Shown here one piece after another: positions 12,085 through 54,300 of a stretch of 64,000 bases of DNA. Made by a program: the position numbers and the translations under genes. Positions within the stretch are counted from its first letter, which is position 1. Each line of letters starts with the position of its first letter. The DNA is from Pleurotus djamor (taxonomy: Eukaryota; Basidiomycota; Agaricomycetes; Agaricales; Pleurotaceae): positions 1-64,000 of the forward strand of contig JAPEVF010000216.1 in NCBI GenBank assembly GCA_029747585.1, written 5' to 3'. The notes under the pieces were generated by a model. It had not been told where the DNA came from, did not search any database, and saw only the letters and a program-made list of their open reading frames with translations.

Positions 12085-13323
12085 TCAGTCCCGAAAGAGG
12101 GGATAGTGACCGCGGTTGATGATCGTTGTGGTCGATGGGAAAGCGATGGAGAATAGTATATAAATACTAGGTACAGACTCGGTGGCTCGGAGATGTGTAA
12201 CAGTGATGGGCTGGAACGAAGCGGACCATCGTACTTGAGGCTTTCCAACGAGGGGTGCAAAGAGCTCATGCCATTTCTCGTAGATACCCATGCCTACGTT
12301 GATCTTCAGCGTGACCGTCGAAAATGTACGCCGCAGCCCAGAACGGAATGCATCGTCAATCTCTCCAGTGTCCACTCAACGACTGTTGGTTGGTTTTTTG
12401 GTGCGTAGAATAAGTGTCGGGGATCGAGAGAACGGCCGCATATCGTCGAACGGGTCCTTATGCAAGACATCGGCGCCAAGGTACCCCACACAACGGAGCA
12501 ACCATTATGAGGATCGTTCCTCAGTTTCATCATCTGCATCCTGGCATTAGATATCGCGGGGCCAGTAGAAATCGTATGTCCTCTGAGGCCACCCCACTTG
12601 GAGGCCAACAGGTACGCTCTGATATCGAAGCGGCTGAGATCCGAGCTTGCTCCCTTGAAAAGGGCAGGTTCTGAGGTTGCGTTTGCGTTGACGATGCGTC
12701 CGTCAGGGAGGACAACCTCATAGTTGACGACGTTGTCTGAGGCGAATACATGTTCGGGCGATGAATTGTCCCTCCAGGACCAAGACTTGCAGCTTTCTTG
12801 TCTGCAGACAGCGTTGTTGCATTGATGAGTTGAAGATCAATAGCAATACCAGGGCTGGCAATATTCGCTGCACCGGCCCAATCCGACAGACCATACAGAA
12901 AACGGGTATTTGCCTTGCTTGACTATCTTGACCGCTTCGGATACGTCTTCTGCATTGGTAGCAGTCACTCGGTATTGCGCTGCGAGCCCCCACTCCTGAG
13001 GAGTGTAGTACGACGCTCTGAGCTCCTGGAACTGAAGCCTGTAGGGCCAGGCAGCGTGACCTTCTCGCTACCAAGCTTCGTCAGCAGTTCCTGACACTGG
13101 AATTGGATGCACGATCAGAAAAAAACCTCGATCAAAGAAATTAGGAGACTTACACAGTCCTTGTTGGCAACTGCTCAAAGCCATTACATTCCCCCTTCGC
13201 GGCCTCTGCAGTTTCCAAGCTTCCGCAACATAATGCTCGAAGGACATTCTATACAGTGTGATCCACAGTCAGTACAGCAAGATTAAGTGGATGCATATCA
13301 ATCTCACCTTGAGTCGTGCTCAT
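12085..13323 (-). pseudogene. Relic FAD-linked (BBE-type) oxidase
   Basis: Translated pieces on the minus strand follow the order of secreted FAD-linked oxidases (FAD_binding_4 plus berberine-bridge C-terminal domain). An N-terminal segment reads LLTKLGSEKVTLPGPTGF. Then come QYRVTATNAEDVSEAVKIVK, AGAANIASPGIAIDLQ, DNVVNYEVVLPDGRIVNA, SRFDIRAY with KWGGLRGH, and a C-terminal EKWHELFAPLVGKP with VRWSASFQP. They lie in different frames. The GGH segment and the region between SLGPGG and FASDNVVN are missing, which removes much of the FAD site. Several introns near the 5' end remain intact. It is a dead gene. The ancestor was probably secreted and made H2O2; its substrate cannot be told. Confidence 0.85.
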
Positions 13324-16956: not shown

Positions 16957-18194
16957 GGCGGTTGGGGGTAGCGGAAATGTGCTTGCTGGAGGTGTTTGAG
17001 AGACGTTTACCTTGTTTTTATACCGCTCAACCCATAGCAAGCGCTTTGGGTTCCAGGCACTAAGAAGAAATAAAACTTGAAGCATCTATTCTGAGAGATA
17101 CCCACCTCCTCCGTCATTGATCGGATATGTTGAGACCATGCACCATCAACAACGGCAGAGAGATCTAGGTCAATACATTTTGCAAAGACTCGGACTTTCA
17201 AGGGAGTGATATCATATCCGAAAGGCGTTATGATTCGACGAGGTGTTGCTAAACGGATGTAAGGAGAGGCGGGACTCGCGGAAGGTATGATGCGCTCGGC
17301 TTAGCCGAACCTCGAATTCTGGTCGATATTTGTGATTGGCAGTTGGCATACGGTCGGGTATTGCAACGTCGTATACCACTAAGCACGGCTGGATATGAGT
17401 TCAGACCTCAGTTCATGCAAGCGGCCGAGTTAGACTTGTGTGGACGCACTGTGTCCAGGAGATACTACAACGAGATCAAAAAGGATTGTCACTTCGTACG
17501 ACGGAGCTGATTGATATTGTCGGAAGGTGAAAGCGCCGAGCAACCAGCATCAACTTATCGGTGAGTTTTCACAGGGTACGTCCGAGAGCGTGGGGGTGGT
17601 GGGAGAGTCCATAAATTGGTCCTAGGTTCCCGGGCGAAAAATGGTCCATTCAAGGTAAAATGTTCATCAATCATTCCTGACACACCGGATAATCTGTCGA
17701 TGTGTTTGGCGACTGGATACGGCTGAGGGAACCGAAGGGGGAATTCGCTGTTGTGCCTCGGCGAGGCGTCGAGATTTGCTTGGTGGAGTCCGAGTTGGAG
17801 TCGCAAACGGCACGCATTATTACGTCGGCCAACATACGGCTACGCGCCGCGCCCGTCCTGTCTAGACTTGGGCTGCACCCAAGGGGCTACATACGATACT
17901 CTATAGCAGATGCAAAAGTTCAAGATAGGAAAGTCAGATTGGCCTGTTTCAGCGACACTGAGGCCAAGTTTGTTTCGGCTTGCAGAATCGAACGGTTTGT
18001 TGACGGTTTGTGGTGGAAAGAGCGCCGACCTACGCTACGGAGTGGGAATAAAGCTCTACACTCGCTCCTCCCAGGCTCCCACGCGATCAAGAGTACGGAG
18101 TTATGAGATATAGTCCACGCGAAGGTCAAGGATGCTGGAAGGCATATGCAAAAAGTCCAACCTCCCCGTAGAGAATGCGCCCCCAACCCCGTAA
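16957..18194. other. Gap upstream of GMC oxidase 2
   Basis: Bases 16,957-17,720 are the GMC 2 promoter. Bases 17,720-18,190 follow the break in the truncated F-box gene. They carry an open tail for it but no recognised domain. Confidence 0.5.
17015..17022 (-). promoter_or_regulatory. TATA box of GMC oxidase 2
   Basis: TATAAAAA on the minus strand about 60 bases before the start codon at 16,956, matching the box of the paralogue. Confidence 0.6.
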
Positions 18195-18549
18195 TTGCTC
18201 CGGCACGGCTTAGCCAGAGATCAGTGATTTTCTGGTTGCTGTGTCTCAATATGCAACACCATATTTGTGGAAAATCGAACGCAATTGTCCGCCATCGCCG
18301 ACAAACCTGCGTGATGGCAAGGGTGTTCTTGATGATGGACAAAGTCTCGTCGAAATCGAGGGATATCAGGCTGAAGATCATGCACAAGAGGTCTTCGGGA
18401 AATTCTGCGACGATCGTGCGCGGTAGAAGACGAGATTTGCGTGCGCGTCGTAGGAAGGCAATGTCATCTTGCAGATCTTGGATTTTCTGGTTGATGTTGC
18501 TGATGTTGGTGATGCTTGACTGGAACCATTCAAGGATACTGACGGTCAT
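17920..18549 (-). pseudogene. Truncated F-box gene fragment
   Basis: From its start (MTVSILEWFQSSI) to LWLSRAGAIT this is a close paralogue of the intact F-box gene at 47,975-49,582. Homology also extends into the shared 5' flank, where both have the GCACCGGCCGAAC motif. It stops abruptly near 18,190. After that the frame continues into unrelated sequence for about 90 codons. The leucine-rich target-binding part is lost, so it is probably a pseudogene, although a short F-box-only product is possible. Confidence 0.75.
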
Positions 18550-18760
18550 GATGGACGAAAGACAAGTACGCCTCGAGGCTGACCCGTGACGATAACAAGC
18601 CTGTTCGGCCGGTGCCTTTATATAAACAAAAACTTGTGAGCATTTCAAAGCGCGACCTTCCATCATCCCGTTTATCAACAGAAAATGTGTAGGATACTGA
18701 AGATCAATAAATGGAAATAAGTCTAGGTGGCCCAAGATCCTGTCAACTGACTTACAAGTT

Positions 18761-46991: not shown

Positions 46992-47974
46992 TCTCTGGCC
47001 AACTGCATCTCACCTTCGCGGCTCCTCGTCAACTATACATATTCACCCACCTTGCCAATGCCTCGCCCCTACTGGCTCTCTGGCTCTCTGGCCCTCTGAC
47101 TTGACACGGAGTTAACTCTTCCAATCGCACAATTTCGGGCACTTTGTGTAGCTAGCCGAAAGTGCGAAGACTTTGGGTGGACCTCGGTGAATTTAGCAAA
47201 ATTCAAGGAAGGCGAAGCTACTCGGACGATATTCCCAGAAAACCTCCGTACTCTGTGTCTCTATTCTGAAAATATTCTGAAAAGTGTTTAACCGTTCACT
47301 TACATACAGAGTGACTATGCATGAGAAGTCCGGCATAAGTAAGTCGGCGAAATGCTCTTTGAGAGAGATCAAAGCTACCACGACACCATGGAGGACTCGT
47401 TTCAAATTCCATCGAGTTTTCTTCTGGGACGCGCTGACAACGATTCTCCTGGCGATCTCCTGTCCTGCGATCATGTGATGACCGTGCGGAACTGTGCCTA
47501 TCGAAAGAGAAGATTCAGCTTGACTTCAACGTTTCAACTTGCAGTGACTCCAGAGTCCAAATCAATTGTATCCATCGGGCTCCTCACGTGTCTCTGCGAC
47601 CCAAGATGCCTCACGCAGGCCGTATTTTGAACGAACGAGATTCGAACGAGCTGACTGAAGAAGTTCACGATTGCCCTTAGCACGCATGAGGACCACGAGT
47701 CGGTGACGGATAATGCATGGTTTCGACACAAAGTGATGGAAGTCAAAGTGATGGAGTCGGTGCCCTCTTTGACTGTGTAAAACCTGGAGGTCAGTTCATG
47801 GCGTTCTCGGGTGACCTAGGCTCATATCTTTCCATTGGTATTCAGTATCCTACGCAATACATACTACACAAAGCGGCCCGGGCGGGAGGTCGCGCTGTGA
47901 AAAGTTTTTAAAAGCACCGGCCGAACCTGAACTCAGCGTCATTGGCCTCGAGGCGTGTTCATCTTTCGACCGTC
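46992..47974. other. Gap before the intact F-box gene
   Basis: No gene is seen. The last 100 bases are homologous to the 5' flank of the truncated F-box copy (18,550-18,640). Confidence 0.5.
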
Positions 47975-49582
47975 ATGACAATCAGTATCGTCGAATGGCT
48001 GCAGTCGAGCATCCCCAACATCCGTGACATCGACCAGAAAATCCAAGATCTACCAGATGATATCGCTTTTCTACGGCGCGCTCGCAAATCTCGTCTTCTG
48101 ACGGGCACGATCGTCGCAGAGTTTCCCGAAGACCTCTTATGCATGATATTCGGCCTAATATCCCACGATTTCGATGGAACAGTGTCTATCGTCAAGAACA
48201 CCCTCGCTGTCACGCAGGTGTGTCGGCGATGGCGAACAGCTGCACTCGATTTCCCCAAAATGTGGTCCTGCATATTTAGCCACAAGAACCAGAAAATCGC
48301 CGATCTCTGGCTAAGCCGTGCCGGAGCAATCACGCCTTTGCGAATAATGACCGCCTCGGAGCCTTACAACTCACATGAGAGTGTTCAGCATATCCTCTCT
48401 CAATACGCCTCGCGCTTGAAAGAGATTAGTCTTCGACCGCCGACCGCTCTCGATGATCTGGAGCTACAGGTTCCTCTCCTCGAGAGGCTGACACTTTGTG
48501 GTTTCAGAGGGCCTGGGTATCAGATCAGTCATCTCCTTTCCTCGGGAGCGGCATCCGGAGCTTCGTTGCGCTACCTTTACTCATTCAATTGCTCCTTCAG
48601 CTTCAATCAGCCGTTCTTCTCTCGTCTTCGCTCCTTGATTCTCCGGTACCCGAACCCAGTTCCCTTACCTGACATGATTAACGCCCTTCGGCGAATGGAA
48701 GAGCTTGAAGTGCTATTACTGGCCCACGCTGTAGACAAGTACGAAGAAGAGGATCCGAGTTTAAAGATCGTTCTCCCCAGGTTAACCACTTTACACATCA
48801 GGGAGCAGCGGATTTCTACACTGTTGATCCTACTGCGTCTTATCTACAGCCCAACCTTAAACTCTTTCAAGGCCCAAGTCAGCGGTGAACATCCCCCAAC
48901 GAATGACGTCCGGGAATTGGCTCGTCTCGCATACGGGCTCATTCCCACTACCCAACCATGGAAAGTGTGTTTTGACATCTTGCTATCACCTTGGAGTTGG
49001 GCGCCGGTTCGAATGATGGTCAAGGTGTGGCCGGACTCCGCCAAATACCCCACTCAACTCCCCCATGATCCTCCCTTTACTGTCACCGTTACTGATTCGA
49101 GGACCTGCCAAAATGCATTCACATTGTCTTCGTTGATCCCACTATCCTCCACGCCAGTCTCCCTTTATTTCACCGACGAAACCTTTAATTCGGATAAAAA
49201 GGTTTATACTTCTTTGGGGCCTTTCTTCAACCATCGCCCATTTGAGGAGGTCCTTGTTGAAGAGGGCTCCTACCCATGTTTTCTGGAGCTTCTGGGACCC
49301 CCTCAAGATGGCTTGTTTTTCTTCCCTTCCTTGAAGCATCTCGGTTGGATTGAGCGTGACCATACAATTTGTTGGGATAACGCTGGGCTCCAATTAAAGG
49401 AAGCTTTGCGAGCGCGCGGAAAGATTGGCCTCGGACTTGATACGCTCAGGATATTTTTGAACTCTTCGATATTGGAGCCTGGACGACATCTTTCGGAATT
49501 GCAGACGTTCTGCGCAGGGAAGCTGGACTTGCAATTCGTGTGGTCTAATAGGATGCCCGCCGTTGAGGAAGACTTTTATTGA
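47975..49582 (+). CDS. F-box/LRR-type protein, intact
   Basis: This is a single-exon gene of 535 residues. I chose the ATG of MTISIVEWLQSSI, which is conserved in the truncated copy. The N-terminal coiled segment (IDQKIQDLPDDIAFLRRARK) is followed by the F-box near residues 55-110 (IVAEFPEDLLCMIFGLIS, then VTQVCRRWRTAALDFPKMW). Leucine-rich repeats follow (LLERLTLCGF, LPRLTTLHIREQRI). It probably recruits an unknown target to an SCF ubiquitin ligase. Confidence 0.88.
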   Translation: MTISIVEWLQSSIPNIRDIDQKIQDLPDDIAFLRRARKSRLLTGTIVAEFPEDLLCMIFGLISHDFDGTVSIVKNTLAVTQVCRRWRTAALDFPKMWSCIFSHKNQKIADLWLSRAGAITPLRIMTASEPYNSHESVQHILSQYASRLKEISLRPPTALDDLELQVPLLERLTLCGFRGPGYQISHLLSSGAASGASLRYLYSFNCSFSFNQPFFSRLRSLILRYPNPVPLPDMINALRRMEELEVLLLAHAVDKYEEEDPSLKIVLPRLTTLHIREQRISTLLILLRLIYSPTLNSFKAQVSGEHPPTNDVRELARLAYGLIPTTQPWKVCFDILLSPWSWAPVRMMVKVWPDSAKYPTQLPHDPPFTVTVTDSRTCQNAFTLSSLIPLSSTPVSLYFTDETFNSDKKVYTSLGPFFNHRPFEEVLVEEGSYPCFLELLGPPQDGLFFFPSLKHLGWIERDHTICWDNAGLQLKEALRARGKIGLGLDTLRIFLNSSILEPGRHLSELQTFCAGKLDLQFVWSNRMPAVEEDFY

Positions 49583-49779: not shown

Positions 49780-50256
49780 CTACGCCCTTTCCGTCACGCA
49801 TGCCTGAGTCGCTCCCTCTTTGCGTTTCTCGAGAGCTTCATAATCGTTATAGTAAAAGCCCTCCTTCAGCTCTTGGCCTTGTTTCTCCACTGCATCGCTA
49901 TAGACTTGTTGCTCCTTGATGGCTCCTCCGTCGCCCTTCTCAGGAAGGTCGTTGGGATAATTATCTCGTTCCTCGGTCTCTCGGACTTCTTCGCGCTTCT
50001 CGACGACCTCATAGTCGTTGTAGTAGAAACGCCCCTCAAGTACTTCTTCGCCGCGCTTCTCCAGTACTTCATAGTCATTGTAATAAAATCGCTTCTCTGC
50101 AACCTCCTGAGCCGCTGTCGGACAATGTTAGCCCCAACGTTGTCTACAACGGCCAACAGAAATGGAACACTGACCTCGGTCTACAGCTACAGGTAGTGCG
50201 GCGACGAACGACGAGGCGATGAGGATGGCAGAGGCGATGAAAGAACGGCTCAACAT
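49780..50256 (-). CDS. Secreted Tyr-rich repeat precursor with Lys-Arg sites
   Basis: Two exons (50,256-50,175 and 50,114-49,780) with a 60-base GT-AG intron give exactly 139 codons. Residues 1-20 are a signal peptide (MLSRSFIASAILIASSFVAA). The rest is acidic and repetitive with a period near 20 residues. FYYNDYE occurs at 37-43, 57-63 and 114-120, each followed by V/A, L/V and then EKR (46-48, 66-68, 123-125). Another EKR lies just before copy 1 (34-36). Two decayed units lie between (NYPNDLPEK, VYSDAVEKQ). Lys-Arg is the Kex2 cleavage signal, so this fits the Kex2-processed repeat precursors of fungi, which include pheromones and ustiloxin-type ribosomal peptides. No family name is claimed. 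A structural repetitive secreted protein is the alternative. Confidence 0.82.
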
Positions 50257-51380
50257 TCTGGTTACTGGTCGTATGATACTGGTGGACCAAGCACCTTCAG
50301 CAGACTCATTTATACTGGTGCGACTCTCACCATATACTCCATCTTTCGGCTTTTTTNAACATGATGTTCCTTGCTTTAAGGACATGCAACGCTTCCGCCC
50401 TTCAAATTGTCTGGGGTGCAAGTTTACTTGCATTTCCTCGGTACCCAGTTGCTTGGAGTTTTGGGAAACCCCTCCCAAGTCCCGGCCGCTTAAGTTCCGT
50501 CTCGACGATGGGTGCTACAGTGTCGCGAACAGGCCGTCCAAGACAACTTGATGTTCACGCTACTTCGCGATCTGTTGCTAACTCTTCAACTCGGTCATCG
50601 GTCATCGGAGTCGGGTATGCATCTTCGCTTCAAGCTTCAATCCCTCCACTTTCCAAGACATACTTAACAGGAATGGTACCCACCATAGCACGATGCCTAC
50701 CTCTGGAGTCATGGGTTGATAGCTATGTTCCTGCCCGGCTTCCTGTATGCTTTCTCCTTGTCATCATGAATCAAATCTGACCGTCCGATGTACTTTATCA
50801 GGCCGTACAATGCACCCGTGCCTAATTCTAACTTCCCTCTCTGAAGGTCCTGTCGCTTGGCGGACAGTCAAGTCTCTAATCAGCCTGGAACCATACGGGA
50901 GTTCTAAAGGAATCATGCAATATTCACATCGCCTTCAGTCTTCGATGTTGAAAGTTGTCAGGGTTTGCTAATTAGTACTTGCATAGGTTCCGAACCAACC
51001 GGGGCCGTATCTAGGAGCATCCATCTGGGAATTGGGGGTGGACGTGGGCGAGGACCTTGAGCGGAGTGAATGGGGTCGATACTAAAGTTTGGCGATAATG
51101 ACTGCAGGTTGCGTGTTAGTAAGAATATTGGGCGATGAATAAACTCAAACCGTATACTAAACCCTAGGTCGACGGACGTGCGTGTCCGTCAGTACGACCC
51201 TATCCTGCGACAGGGGCCTCTGATGCTCTTCCTACCGGCTGTCATCGTCCATGGCAGCGCCAGCGCAACGACAGAGCTTTCCCGCTGAAAGCATGCTCGA
51301 AAATTGCTACAGAAAATACCCTTTAAGGCTGTCTCCAGTCGTCTGCTCTCACCTCACTACACTCACATAGAAAACGAACC
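50257..51380. other. Divergent promoter space
   Basis: This lies between the repeat precursor (-) and the subtilase (+). No gene is seen. An N lies at 50,357 in a T-run. Confidence 0.5.
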
Positions 51381-54300
51381 ATGAAGCCTCCATGTTTGCT
51401 CAGCGTTTCGCTGCTACTTTCGACGCTCGGTCTGGGACTTGCTGTCGATCTCGGAGAGCTGGACGACTCGATATACGTTCCTAATGCGTACATGGTGGAG
51501 ATGGATGATCTGGCAACGCTGCAGAGGCGGGATGACGAGGTGCATGTCTCTACTTTTCTAGCTGAAAACGAGGCTAATATTGGAGTTTTGTATGCGCTAG
51601 CCTATACACGACTATGTTTATCGACATATGCGGCGGAGGGGGATAGGCTTTGATGTAAAGCACGAATACAATGCTCCAGACATCATGGTGGGAGCTTCGA
51701 TGAGGTTACAAGTACGTCGTCATCCATTCTCCTTCATCATGTGCGCCCTAATTTCTTTCCTCAACCAAGTCCGCAGACGTGAGTAATAGACCCTCGAGAC
51801 CGCCGTTTTCTGAGTCTCAACTGCTGCTTAGGACATTCATTCAATTTCAAACATACCTGGCGTCAGGCATGTCCAGCCTGTACTACGTATACGCCGCCCA
51901 ACGTCAGTTCTTCCACCTCCGTCATCAGCCTTCTTTTATCTTAGGTTATGTCAATAGACCTATCACAGACATTCCCGTCACTGGTCCAGAAGACCCACAC
52001 GTACCCTCAAACGCTCTAAGCACACATATAATGACAGGCGTTGATAAGGTCAACGCGCAAGGGTATTTCGGGAAAGGCGTACGCATAGGGATCGTCGACA
52101 CAGGAATAGACTACACACATCCTTTCCTGGGCAAGAAATTGGGAAAGGGAAACAAAGTCATTGGGGGTTATGATTTTGTTGGAGATCGGTATAATGGCAC
52201 GAACGAACCGGAACCAGATGATGATCCATTGGATCAGTAAGTCCAACTAGACGTCTCTCGAGCCTATTGCTGAATAGTGCTGCAGGTGCTCGGGACATGG
52301 AACACACGCGGCTGGTATCATTGGTGCAAACCCCGGGAATCCGTTTGGTATCCAAGGGGTGGCGTATCAAGCTTCGCTTGCTTCATACAGAGTGTTTGGA
52401 TGTAATGGTTCGACGAGTGATGAACGTAAGTGCTTTCATTCTCTCCCTGATACTGTCCGACTTATCATGACCCTCTGCTCATAGTAATCATTGATGCGCT
52501 GATACGAGCGTATAACGATGGCATGGATGTTATCACGCTATCTCTTGGAGGTGTGGATGGTTGGACGACTGGTGTTGGGTCGGTTGTTGCGAGTAGGATT
52601 GCCCAACATGGGAGAGTCGTCACTGTTGCGGCGGGGAATGGTAAGTCTTTCGCTTCTACGCACGCGTCATTCTATCTGACATCCGCCCTCATTCTAGAGG
52701 GAACCGTTGGCTCGTGGTATACATCAAGCCCCTCCAATGGTCGAGCGACGATATCAGTCGGGAGCGTGGATAAGTGCGTTGTGTCGCCTTCGATAGCTGG
52801 AATGATGTTGTTGACACTGCTTGATACAGCACCGTGATACCTATGCAAAATATCACTGTTCTAGGAGCTGACCACCCTCCGATAGTTCGTCTTTCCCTGC
52901 TTCCAACCTGTCTTCTTCTCTAATAACAAGATTCTTCGCTCTTTAATAGCCATACCTCCAGGCTCTGCCTCTAAATATCCCCAAGGACCTACCTATCTAC
53001 GCCACGTCTACTCAGATATCTAATAAGAACGATGCTTGCGAGCCTCTTCCCCCATCAACGCCTGATTTGTCGGGGTATGCCGTCGTTATACATCGTGGAG
53101 GATGCTACTTTGTACGTCCTTATCTACCTCTCTCTGGTTCGTTCCTCACCGTGAACCTTGCGTCGTTGCGTTTGTCTTCTTGCAGACTCAGAAACTGGAT
53201 AATGCGGCTAAGTTCGGAGCAAAGACATTTCTGGTATACAAGTTCGTTAACCATTTCCCTCTACTTCGGAGTGCCGCTGCTCATTTCTTTCCTTTCAAAG
53301 CTCGGACGACGGAGAGTTTTCTGGTATCGCTGTCGGGAATTACACAGCTGTCCTTATAACGGCTGATGATGGTAAATGGGTAAGTTTCCCCCAACCATTC
53401 GTTCCCATCCCTTTTCTCACCGCTCTCCAGCTTGTCAACCAATTTATCGCCAAAACCCCAATCCTCCTTCACTTTCCACCTGAGGGTGCCCCACATAACA
53501 TCCCAGATCCCAAAGGCGGGCTCACATCGTCGTTTTCGTCTTATGGCCCGACGTACGATATGTACTTCAAACCCGCGTTGGTAGCACCGGGAGGGAATAT
53601 TCTCTCGACCTTCCACACGAAGAATGGAAGTTGGGCTGTGCGCTCGGGGACGTCGATGTCCGCGCCTTTCGTTGCGGGCGCTGCTGCGTTGTTCTTGGAA
53701 GCAAAGGGTGTGGCGAATGGTGCGGGGGGAAAGAAGAGGAAGGAGGTTGTGGAGTCGATGAGGGATTTGTTGCAGACGACGGCTGTGGGTGTCCTGGCGA
53801 ATTCTTCGGCGGAGAGTTTGTTCCAGACTGCGACGCAGCAGGGTGCGGGGCTTATACAGGTGGACAGGGCGATCGCGACGAAGACGATTGTGAGGCCTGG
53901 ACAGTTGATGTTGAATGATTCGGTTAATTTTGTTCCGGAGTGAGTTGGTTCTTTGTGCTTTTGTTGTGTGGAGGCTGATCTCGAGGTTAGGCATACTATT
54001 ACCGTTACGAATACGCATACGGTACCCGTTTCTTATGAACTTTTTCACGTTCCGGCTGGGACGGCGTTGACGATACAACCTGTAAGCTTCCCTCTTCTCC
54101 CTTGTTCAATCACTTGACGCGAACCCTTGCCGCAGAATTCGAGCGAAGCTTCATTAGCCCCCGTCCCAATCATTCCTTCCTTCGCAAACGTTGCTATCAC
54201 TCCGGACACTCTCTACCTCCTGCCAGGCGAAACCGTCCAAGTGGCACTTTCATTCACCCCACCAGCCGACGTGGATGTGAAACGACTACCCGTTTATTCG

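Follow-up and report, generated by a model that had tools for sequence, protein, structure and literature searches.

What does a small, tyrosine-rich repeat gene in the pink oyster mushroom Pleurotus djamor encode, does it stand alone, and what becomes of the peptides that it would release? The gene lies in the window analysed here, a stretch of 64,000 nucleotides consisting of bases 1-64000 of contig C548 (68,361 bases), from an assembly of 55.86 Mb in 1,413 contigs. It is read from the minus strand, 50256 to 49780 (Table 1), and encodes 138 residues once a 60-nt intron is removed. The coordinates, strand, start codon, intron and product given by the first-pass annotation, which was made from the sequence alone, all held, and an NCBI prediction for this species, ONZ45_g8387, has the same 138 residues, all identical. 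As 28 of the 29 alternative GT-AG introns listed also leave the frame open, support for the 60-nt intron comes from the NCBI model and from its position, which the paralogues described below share. The hydrophobic N-terminus, judged by eye, is taken as a putative signal peptide.

Table 1. Features of the precursor gene in the window (window positions; all on the minus strand).
Feature	Position	Strand	Basis
Exon 1: ATG, putative signal peptide (about residues 1-20, MLSRSFIASAILIASSFVAA), then LPVAVDR	50175..50256	-	translation of DNA
Intron, 60 nt, phase 1, GTCAGT...CGACAG	50115..50174	-	predicted; NCBI model gives identical protein
Exon 2: repeat region and stop	49780..50114	-	translation of DNA
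Core 1, FYYNDYE, flanked by KR on both sides; starts at residue 37	50068..50088	-	
Core 2, FYYNDYE, preceded by EGR, EKR after; starts at residue 57	50008..50028	-	
Core 3, FYYNDYE, preceded by KEG, EKR after; starts at residue 114	49837..49857	-	
Decayed unit DNYPNDL, then PEKG (dibasic site lost); starts at residue 78	49945..49965	-	
Decayed unit QVYSDAV, then EKQ (dibasic site lost); starts at residue 97	49888..49908	-	
Lys-Arg preceding core 1	50089..50094	-	
Lys-Arg following core 1	50053..50058	-	
Lys-Arg following core 2	49993..49998	-	
Lys-Arg following core 3	49822..49827	-	
TATA-like box, 58 bases upstream of the ATG	50309..50314	-	

The three identical FYYNDYE cores that had been described are present, and in all three, two residues intervene before the downstream EKR. 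The accompanying claim of processing by Kex2 agrees with the Lys-Arg that follows every core; on the left side, a point that the annotation had left unmentioned, Lys-Arg directly precedes core 1 only. Similarly, a period of about 20 residues stands but a strict one does not, as the five units are spaced 20, 21, 19 and 17 residues apart. Towards the C-terminus of the protein, EKRKEGATQA resembles the EKREEGEAQA of a paralogue on contig C1249.

Among the three copies of FYYNDYE, six of the seven codons vary, every change is a third-position transition, and the residue is never altered, just as had been noticed earlier; over the six-residue cores (FYYNDY), pairwise comparison gives 10 silent and no replacement differences, and over the five residues after the core it gives 9 silent and 4 replacement differences. 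When six transitions were placed at random, all were silent in 0.00012 of the placements, a figure that overstates the surprise because the copies were chosen for being identical. Judged from these substitutions, the cores of the window copy appear to be still under constraint. Two simpler origins of the cores were considered and rejected. Chance was ruled out, since a 20-base degenerate core pattern occurs three times in the 55.86-Mb genome, always within this gene, while the same pattern read backwards, used as a control, occurs nowhere in it. Recent tandem duplication was ruled out by the silent divergence together with the absence of a tandem array from the gene (TRF reported six rows in the window, none of them there); the copies have thus diverged in DNA and been preserved in protein.

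The same region shows signs of loss, as two of the five units have decayed and two of the three left-hand Kex2 sites are gone. These losses suggest that the window copy is partly eroded, and they would also fit a dying paralogue that yields little or no useful peptide, as would the truncation, on contig C685, of a copy of the C1249 gene, which demonstrates that family copies do break, and our failure to find a second copy or allele of the locus in this assembly (five candidates scored), where some other loci are represented by both alleles. However, the frame is open, the splice sites and a TATA-like box are in place, and replacement differences are absent from the cores. We therefore consider a dying gene rather unlikely.

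Basidiomycete pheromones have a CaaX-type end, whereas the window protein ends in ...CVTERA; it also has no Pfam family match at E ≤ 1, MF_alpha included. Both observations speak against a mating pheromone precursor, even though the Kex2-type repeat architecture resembles that of alpha-factor precursors, a likeness also found in the accessible part of PMC9233826. According to the available text of the KEP survey PMC7329392, from which all statements cited to it here are taken, DUF3328 genes lie near 17 of the 76 KEPs that resemble putative basidiomycete pheromones, so the UstYa neighbours of the paralogues (see below) do not exclude a pheromone; in the same source, however, KEPs annotated as alpha-factors or fungal pheromones are without DUF3328 neighbours, with three exceptions. 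Taken together, we regard a pheromone as highly improbable.

The gene does not stand alone. When its protein was searched against its own genome, matches were obtained on contigs C1249 (E 4.4e-8) and C685 (E 2.3e-7) and, weakly, on C634 (E 0.02). In our own spliced models, the C1249 precursor has 165 residues and seven FYYT[NH]Y cores; the C685 precursor (C685:40929-41595, plus strand) has 203 residues and nine FFYT[HD]Y cores; and the C634 precursor has 156 residues and the cores FYYTGY, YLYSKY, FYYTHY, FYYHDY and FYYTRY. The layout of signal exon and intron is common to all four genes as modelled, with the intron at the same place and in phase 1, the 58-nt introns of the three paralogues having been chosen by us and removed to give the protein models. 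Exon 1 of the window gene shares 83-86% DNA identity, over 59-71 bases, with its counterparts in the C1249 gene and in the truncated C685 copy. A TATA-like box lies at −69 to −71 in C1249, the truncated C685 copy and C634; none was found within 160 bases of the intact C685 paralogue. The window gene thus matches the family pattern, F-[YF]-Y-x-x-Y beside dibasic sites with a signal exon and a phase-1 intron, the intron being a part of the definition established in the four P. djamor genes only. Of the earlier interpretation, we retain a Kex2-type precursor like those of ustiloxin and other dikaritins, its tyrosine-rich core under constraint, and replace the lone new precursor by a family of asperipin-like paralogues. 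The family may extend further, as a Kex2-repeat gene with LVYIYDGE units, which adjoins UstYa genes at C340:9714-9995 and C453:51411-51692 (near-identical contigs that are probably alleles), is matched by the C685 precursor at E 2e-9 (C634 precursor, 0.3) and has a likely signal exon that likewise ends in LPVEQG. We take it on these grounds for a probable, more remote member.

In the cores of C1249 (pS 0.79, pN 0.03) and C685 (0.83, 0.04), silent change is far more frequent than replacement; in those of C634 (0.41, 0.27) the excess is much smaller. For the five residues that follow the core, the corresponding values are 0.73 and 0.20, 0.96 and 0.04, and 0.65 and 0.30. Constraint on the core alone is therefore not a rule throughout the family: in C685 the following residues are conserved as strongly as the core itself, and in C634 the cores vary.

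The first-pass annotation had seen no UstY-type oxidase in the window, and a search with PF11807 (UstYa, E ≤ 0.1) confirmed this for the whole 68-kb contig and gave no match on C1249 or C634 either. The genome scan for UstY/DUF3328 genes that it had proposed was productive, with 46 exon-level matches at the same threshold on 18 contigs, some of them alleles. Two of the genes stand head to head on C685, at about 38.2-39.1 kb (minus strand) and 39.3-40.4 kb (plus strand), the latter ending about 0.6 kb before the FFYT precursor. NCBI numbers them consecutively (g2362/g2363). Their spliced models score E 2.2e-42 and 1.2e-52 against the Pfam UstYa family and carry two HxxHC motifs each (HQLHC and HVAHC; HQLHC and HIRHC). 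The minus-strand model equals NCBI protein P0032 letter for letter; the plus-strand model, with a GC-AG first intron by our own reading, has 287 residues and differs around that intron from the NCBI version, P0019, which has 271.

This arrangement recalls asperipin-2a of Aspergillus flavus, a bicyclic peptide with the core FYYTGY closed by tyrosine ethers through AprY, a UstYa homologue, in a four-gene cluster (as given in the accessible part of PMC6514808, where Aspergillus oryzae served as the laboratory host for its expression). As in its precursor AprA, the Pleurotus family has a repeated hexapeptide core in a Kex2-type precursor; FYYTGY is identical to one of the five C634 cores; and UstYa-type genes adjoin the precursor at C685. 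The differences are that the host is a basidiomycete, that C685 carries a pair of UstYa genes and the asperipin-2a cluster a single one, and that neither an aprT-like transporter nor an aprR-like reductase was recognised beside the C685 cluster among the 11 of 66 frames of at least 120 residues scanned (C685:11000-53000, exons not joined). The comparison is by the published core and cluster description. The window core FYYNDY agrees with FYYTGY at four of six residues and is thus not the asperipin-2a core. As the FYYTGY core is found in C634 and the linked oxidase at C685, and neither in the window gene, we assign this gene to an asperipin-like family without naming its product an asperipin. 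Ustiloxin and phomopsin, which are dikaritins, likewise combine a Kex2 repeat precursor with UstYa/DUF3328 proteins, but they have the cores YVIG/YAIG and YVIP, a Tyr-Ile link and a tyrosinase (PMC7329392); unlike the dikaritin clusters, the window gene has no UstYa gene on its contig.

Most likely, the window gene belongs, as a dispersed paralogue, to a P. djamor family of asperipin-like Kex2-repeat precursors, the peptides of which would be crosslinked by UstYa proteins. The precursor would enter the secretory pathway through its signal peptide; Kex2 would cut after Lys-Arg, freeing short peptides with the scaffold F-[YF]-Y-x-x-Y; and UstYa-type oxidases, by analogy with asperipin-2a, would join tyrosine side chains to yield small cyclic peptides. 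Cores 2 and 3 of the window copy would need left-end trimming by another protease, and since no UstYa gene was found on C548, crosslinking of its product would have to occur in trans. For the family as a whole we infer transcription, secretion, cutting, trimming and crosslinking from the genes.

The missing oxidase could also be taken to mean that the window copy gives linear, unmodified secreted peptides (FYYNDYEVLE and longer pieces) acting as signals or in defence, with only the C685 product being cyclised. The Pleurotus KEP peptides reported so far are plain: those detected in P. ostreatus and P. eryngii derive from a different precursor and end in -AADW, unlike the tyrosine cores of the window gene; they agreed with synthetic standards, and the accessible text of PMC9769878 makes no mention of a crosslink. 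Furthermore, DUF3328 neighbours are recorded for 103 of 1,680 KEP genes in Basidiomycota (PMC7329392), from which it can be derived that 1,577 are without such a gene within 15 genes. On the other hand, the aromatic scaffold F-Y-Y-x-x-Y is exact in three old copies, and the UstYa genes matched on 18 contigs could act in trans. Linear peptides are therefore a possibility that we hold to be the less probable outcome, and crosslinking remains our preferred reading.

A search for homologues had also been proposed, and the window protein alone matched only itself in the public database. A profile of the four paralogues, in contrast, retrieved at least 17 further proteins (E 4.9e-28 to 5.2e-5, among 7,990 candidates scored); the ten of the 17 with a species comprise eight Aspergillus or Penicillium records, one P. 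eryngii and one Mycena crocata. As these relatives appear only with the profile, the tie of the window copy to the mould precursors runs through its paralogues. The 79 cores extracted from 21 proteins, among them the four of P. djamor, give the consensus F-[YF]-Y-[TDN]-x-Y, with T, D or N at position 4 in 75 and F at position 1 in 78, although the extraction pattern itself restricted positions 1, 2, 3 and 6 and left non-fitting units, including the two decayed ones of the window gene, uncounted. Joint conservation of core and dibasic site in relatives had been set beforehand as a test of the precursor reading, and it was observed: a dibasic pair directly precedes 68 of these 79 cores and lies within 8 residues after 71.

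Among the matches listed, the closest relatives of the C685 UstYa proteins are from P. pulmonarius, P. eryngii, P. ostreatus and Hohenbuehelia. In P. pulmonarius, proteins of both types (P0021 and P0030) are recorded on a contig of 47,522 bases; as this is apparently one and the same contig, the pair has probably been kept together in that species. In M. crocata, an FFYTHY/FYYTNY precursor, P0015, and a UstYa protein, P0036, are both recorded on a 359,126-base contig, a hint of linkage that concerns one of the 17 precursor hits, among the UstYa matches listed from one query. A tree was built from 102 UstYa proteins (67 basidiomycete and 35 ascomycete, with phylum assigned from genus names), namely those of 120 listed matches that had a species name; its root is undefined, and several of its branches are long and unsafe. 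The Pleurotus proteins and one from Hohenbuehelia form a group of 14 with support of 100/94 and without any of the 35 ascomycete rows; P0036 is not part of this group and sits, on a long branch, close to two Aspergillus rows. With no ascomycete among the 14, the tree gives no sign that the Pleurotus genes were recently acquired from moulds.

The separation of this group, with P0036 placed near the two Aspergillus rows, would also fit mushroom and mould cores that had converged independently on F-Y-Y-T-x-Y instead of being inherited or transferred, and short, repetitive precursors lend themselves to such an origin. Against this, the core, the spacer style (xxEKRDExxEKR) and the dibasic sites are common to both phyla. 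Convergence is, in our view, conceivable but not the expected history.

Comparison between contigs shows how precursor genes differ within the assembly. C1249:10608-19321 and C685:15689-24351 are 91.7-94.9% identical over three stretches and hence are probably alleles; the seven-core precursor is intact on C1249, and its C685 copy (C685:15689-15892) is truncated to the signal exon and one core. A 2.2-kb stretch holding the FYYTGY gene, C634:47402-49614, is missing from the corresponding junction, C685:43363/43364. Since identity in the flanks of this junction is no more than 78.5 and 84.4%, and colinearity between the segments is otherwise lacking, a duplicated segment is a likelier account of the C634 stretch than an allele. 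It is tempting to speculate, though we would not lean on it, that the oyster mushroom makes combinatorial asperipin-like cyclic peptides: the UstYa proteins of one cluster would act on dispersed precursors (FYYTGY, FYYTNY, FFYTHY and FYYNDY); precursor genes would be gained, broken or lost between haplotypes; and the peptide repertoire would differ between the nuclei of a dikaryon.

As to novelty, genes of this kind, Kex2-repeat genes beside UstYa genes in Basidiomycota, are already known (PMC7329392), and it is the present member that is new. The window gene shares the architecture and processing logic of the KEPs of Agaricomycetes described in the available portions of PMC7329392 and PMC9769878, in which tyrosine cores like those of the Pleurotus family are not mentioned. 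KEP type G-5/P-1 of the former is Tyr- and Asp-rich and occurs in Aspergillus, Penicillium and several mushrooms, with Pleurotus not in the genus list as far as that text goes; set beside our family by description, it may be the same family, and part of the Pleurotus family may already be catalogued in that survey. Asperipins and other dikaritins are given as ascomycete products in the accessible parts of a review (PMC9233826) and a research paper (PMC12048977), and phomopsin-like precursors with DUF3328 genes have been detected across Dikarya (27, Ding et al., according to PMC7329392). Nothing naming this asperipin-like family in Pleurotus was found in the literature searched, which was mostly open literature with few matches examined in depth. 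In P. ostreatus, fruiting involves developmental expression of six of the 16 UstYa-like genes, which are described as 'probably involved in dikaritin production' (PMC8893723, available part); precursors of the present kind are, by our own inference, candidate substrates of their products. The family and its adjacent UstYa pair, in a cultivated mushroom, offer a tractable place to seek a basidiomycete dikaritin, and the natural core variants could be used to map what the oxidase accepts.

Several neighbouring genes were also recorded. Oxidoreductase genes lie near the C1249 and C634 precursors, at C1249:11.8-13.5 kb (FAD_binding_4) and C634:39.2-43.4 kb, and also at C685:17.0-18.7 kb; in the window, a stretch at 12182-13099, 37 kb from the precursor and with no Pfam match, is 73-84% identical to those near the C1249 and C634 precursors. 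On the plus strand of the window, 51381-53940 holds a subtilase gene in pieces, with Peptidase_S8 matches at 52451-52834 and 53251-53940; it is divergent from the precursor, with its likely start about 1.1 kb away, and may be either a chance neighbour or a processing protease. As C548 has no P_proprotein match, this subtilase is not recognised as a kexin, and the one match to that kexin-type domain in the genome is on C222. Finally, an F-box-like gene adjoins the precursor; its 5' part (47909-48334) has an 82% identical copy at 18190-18620, and a further copy, at 76% identity, on C453.
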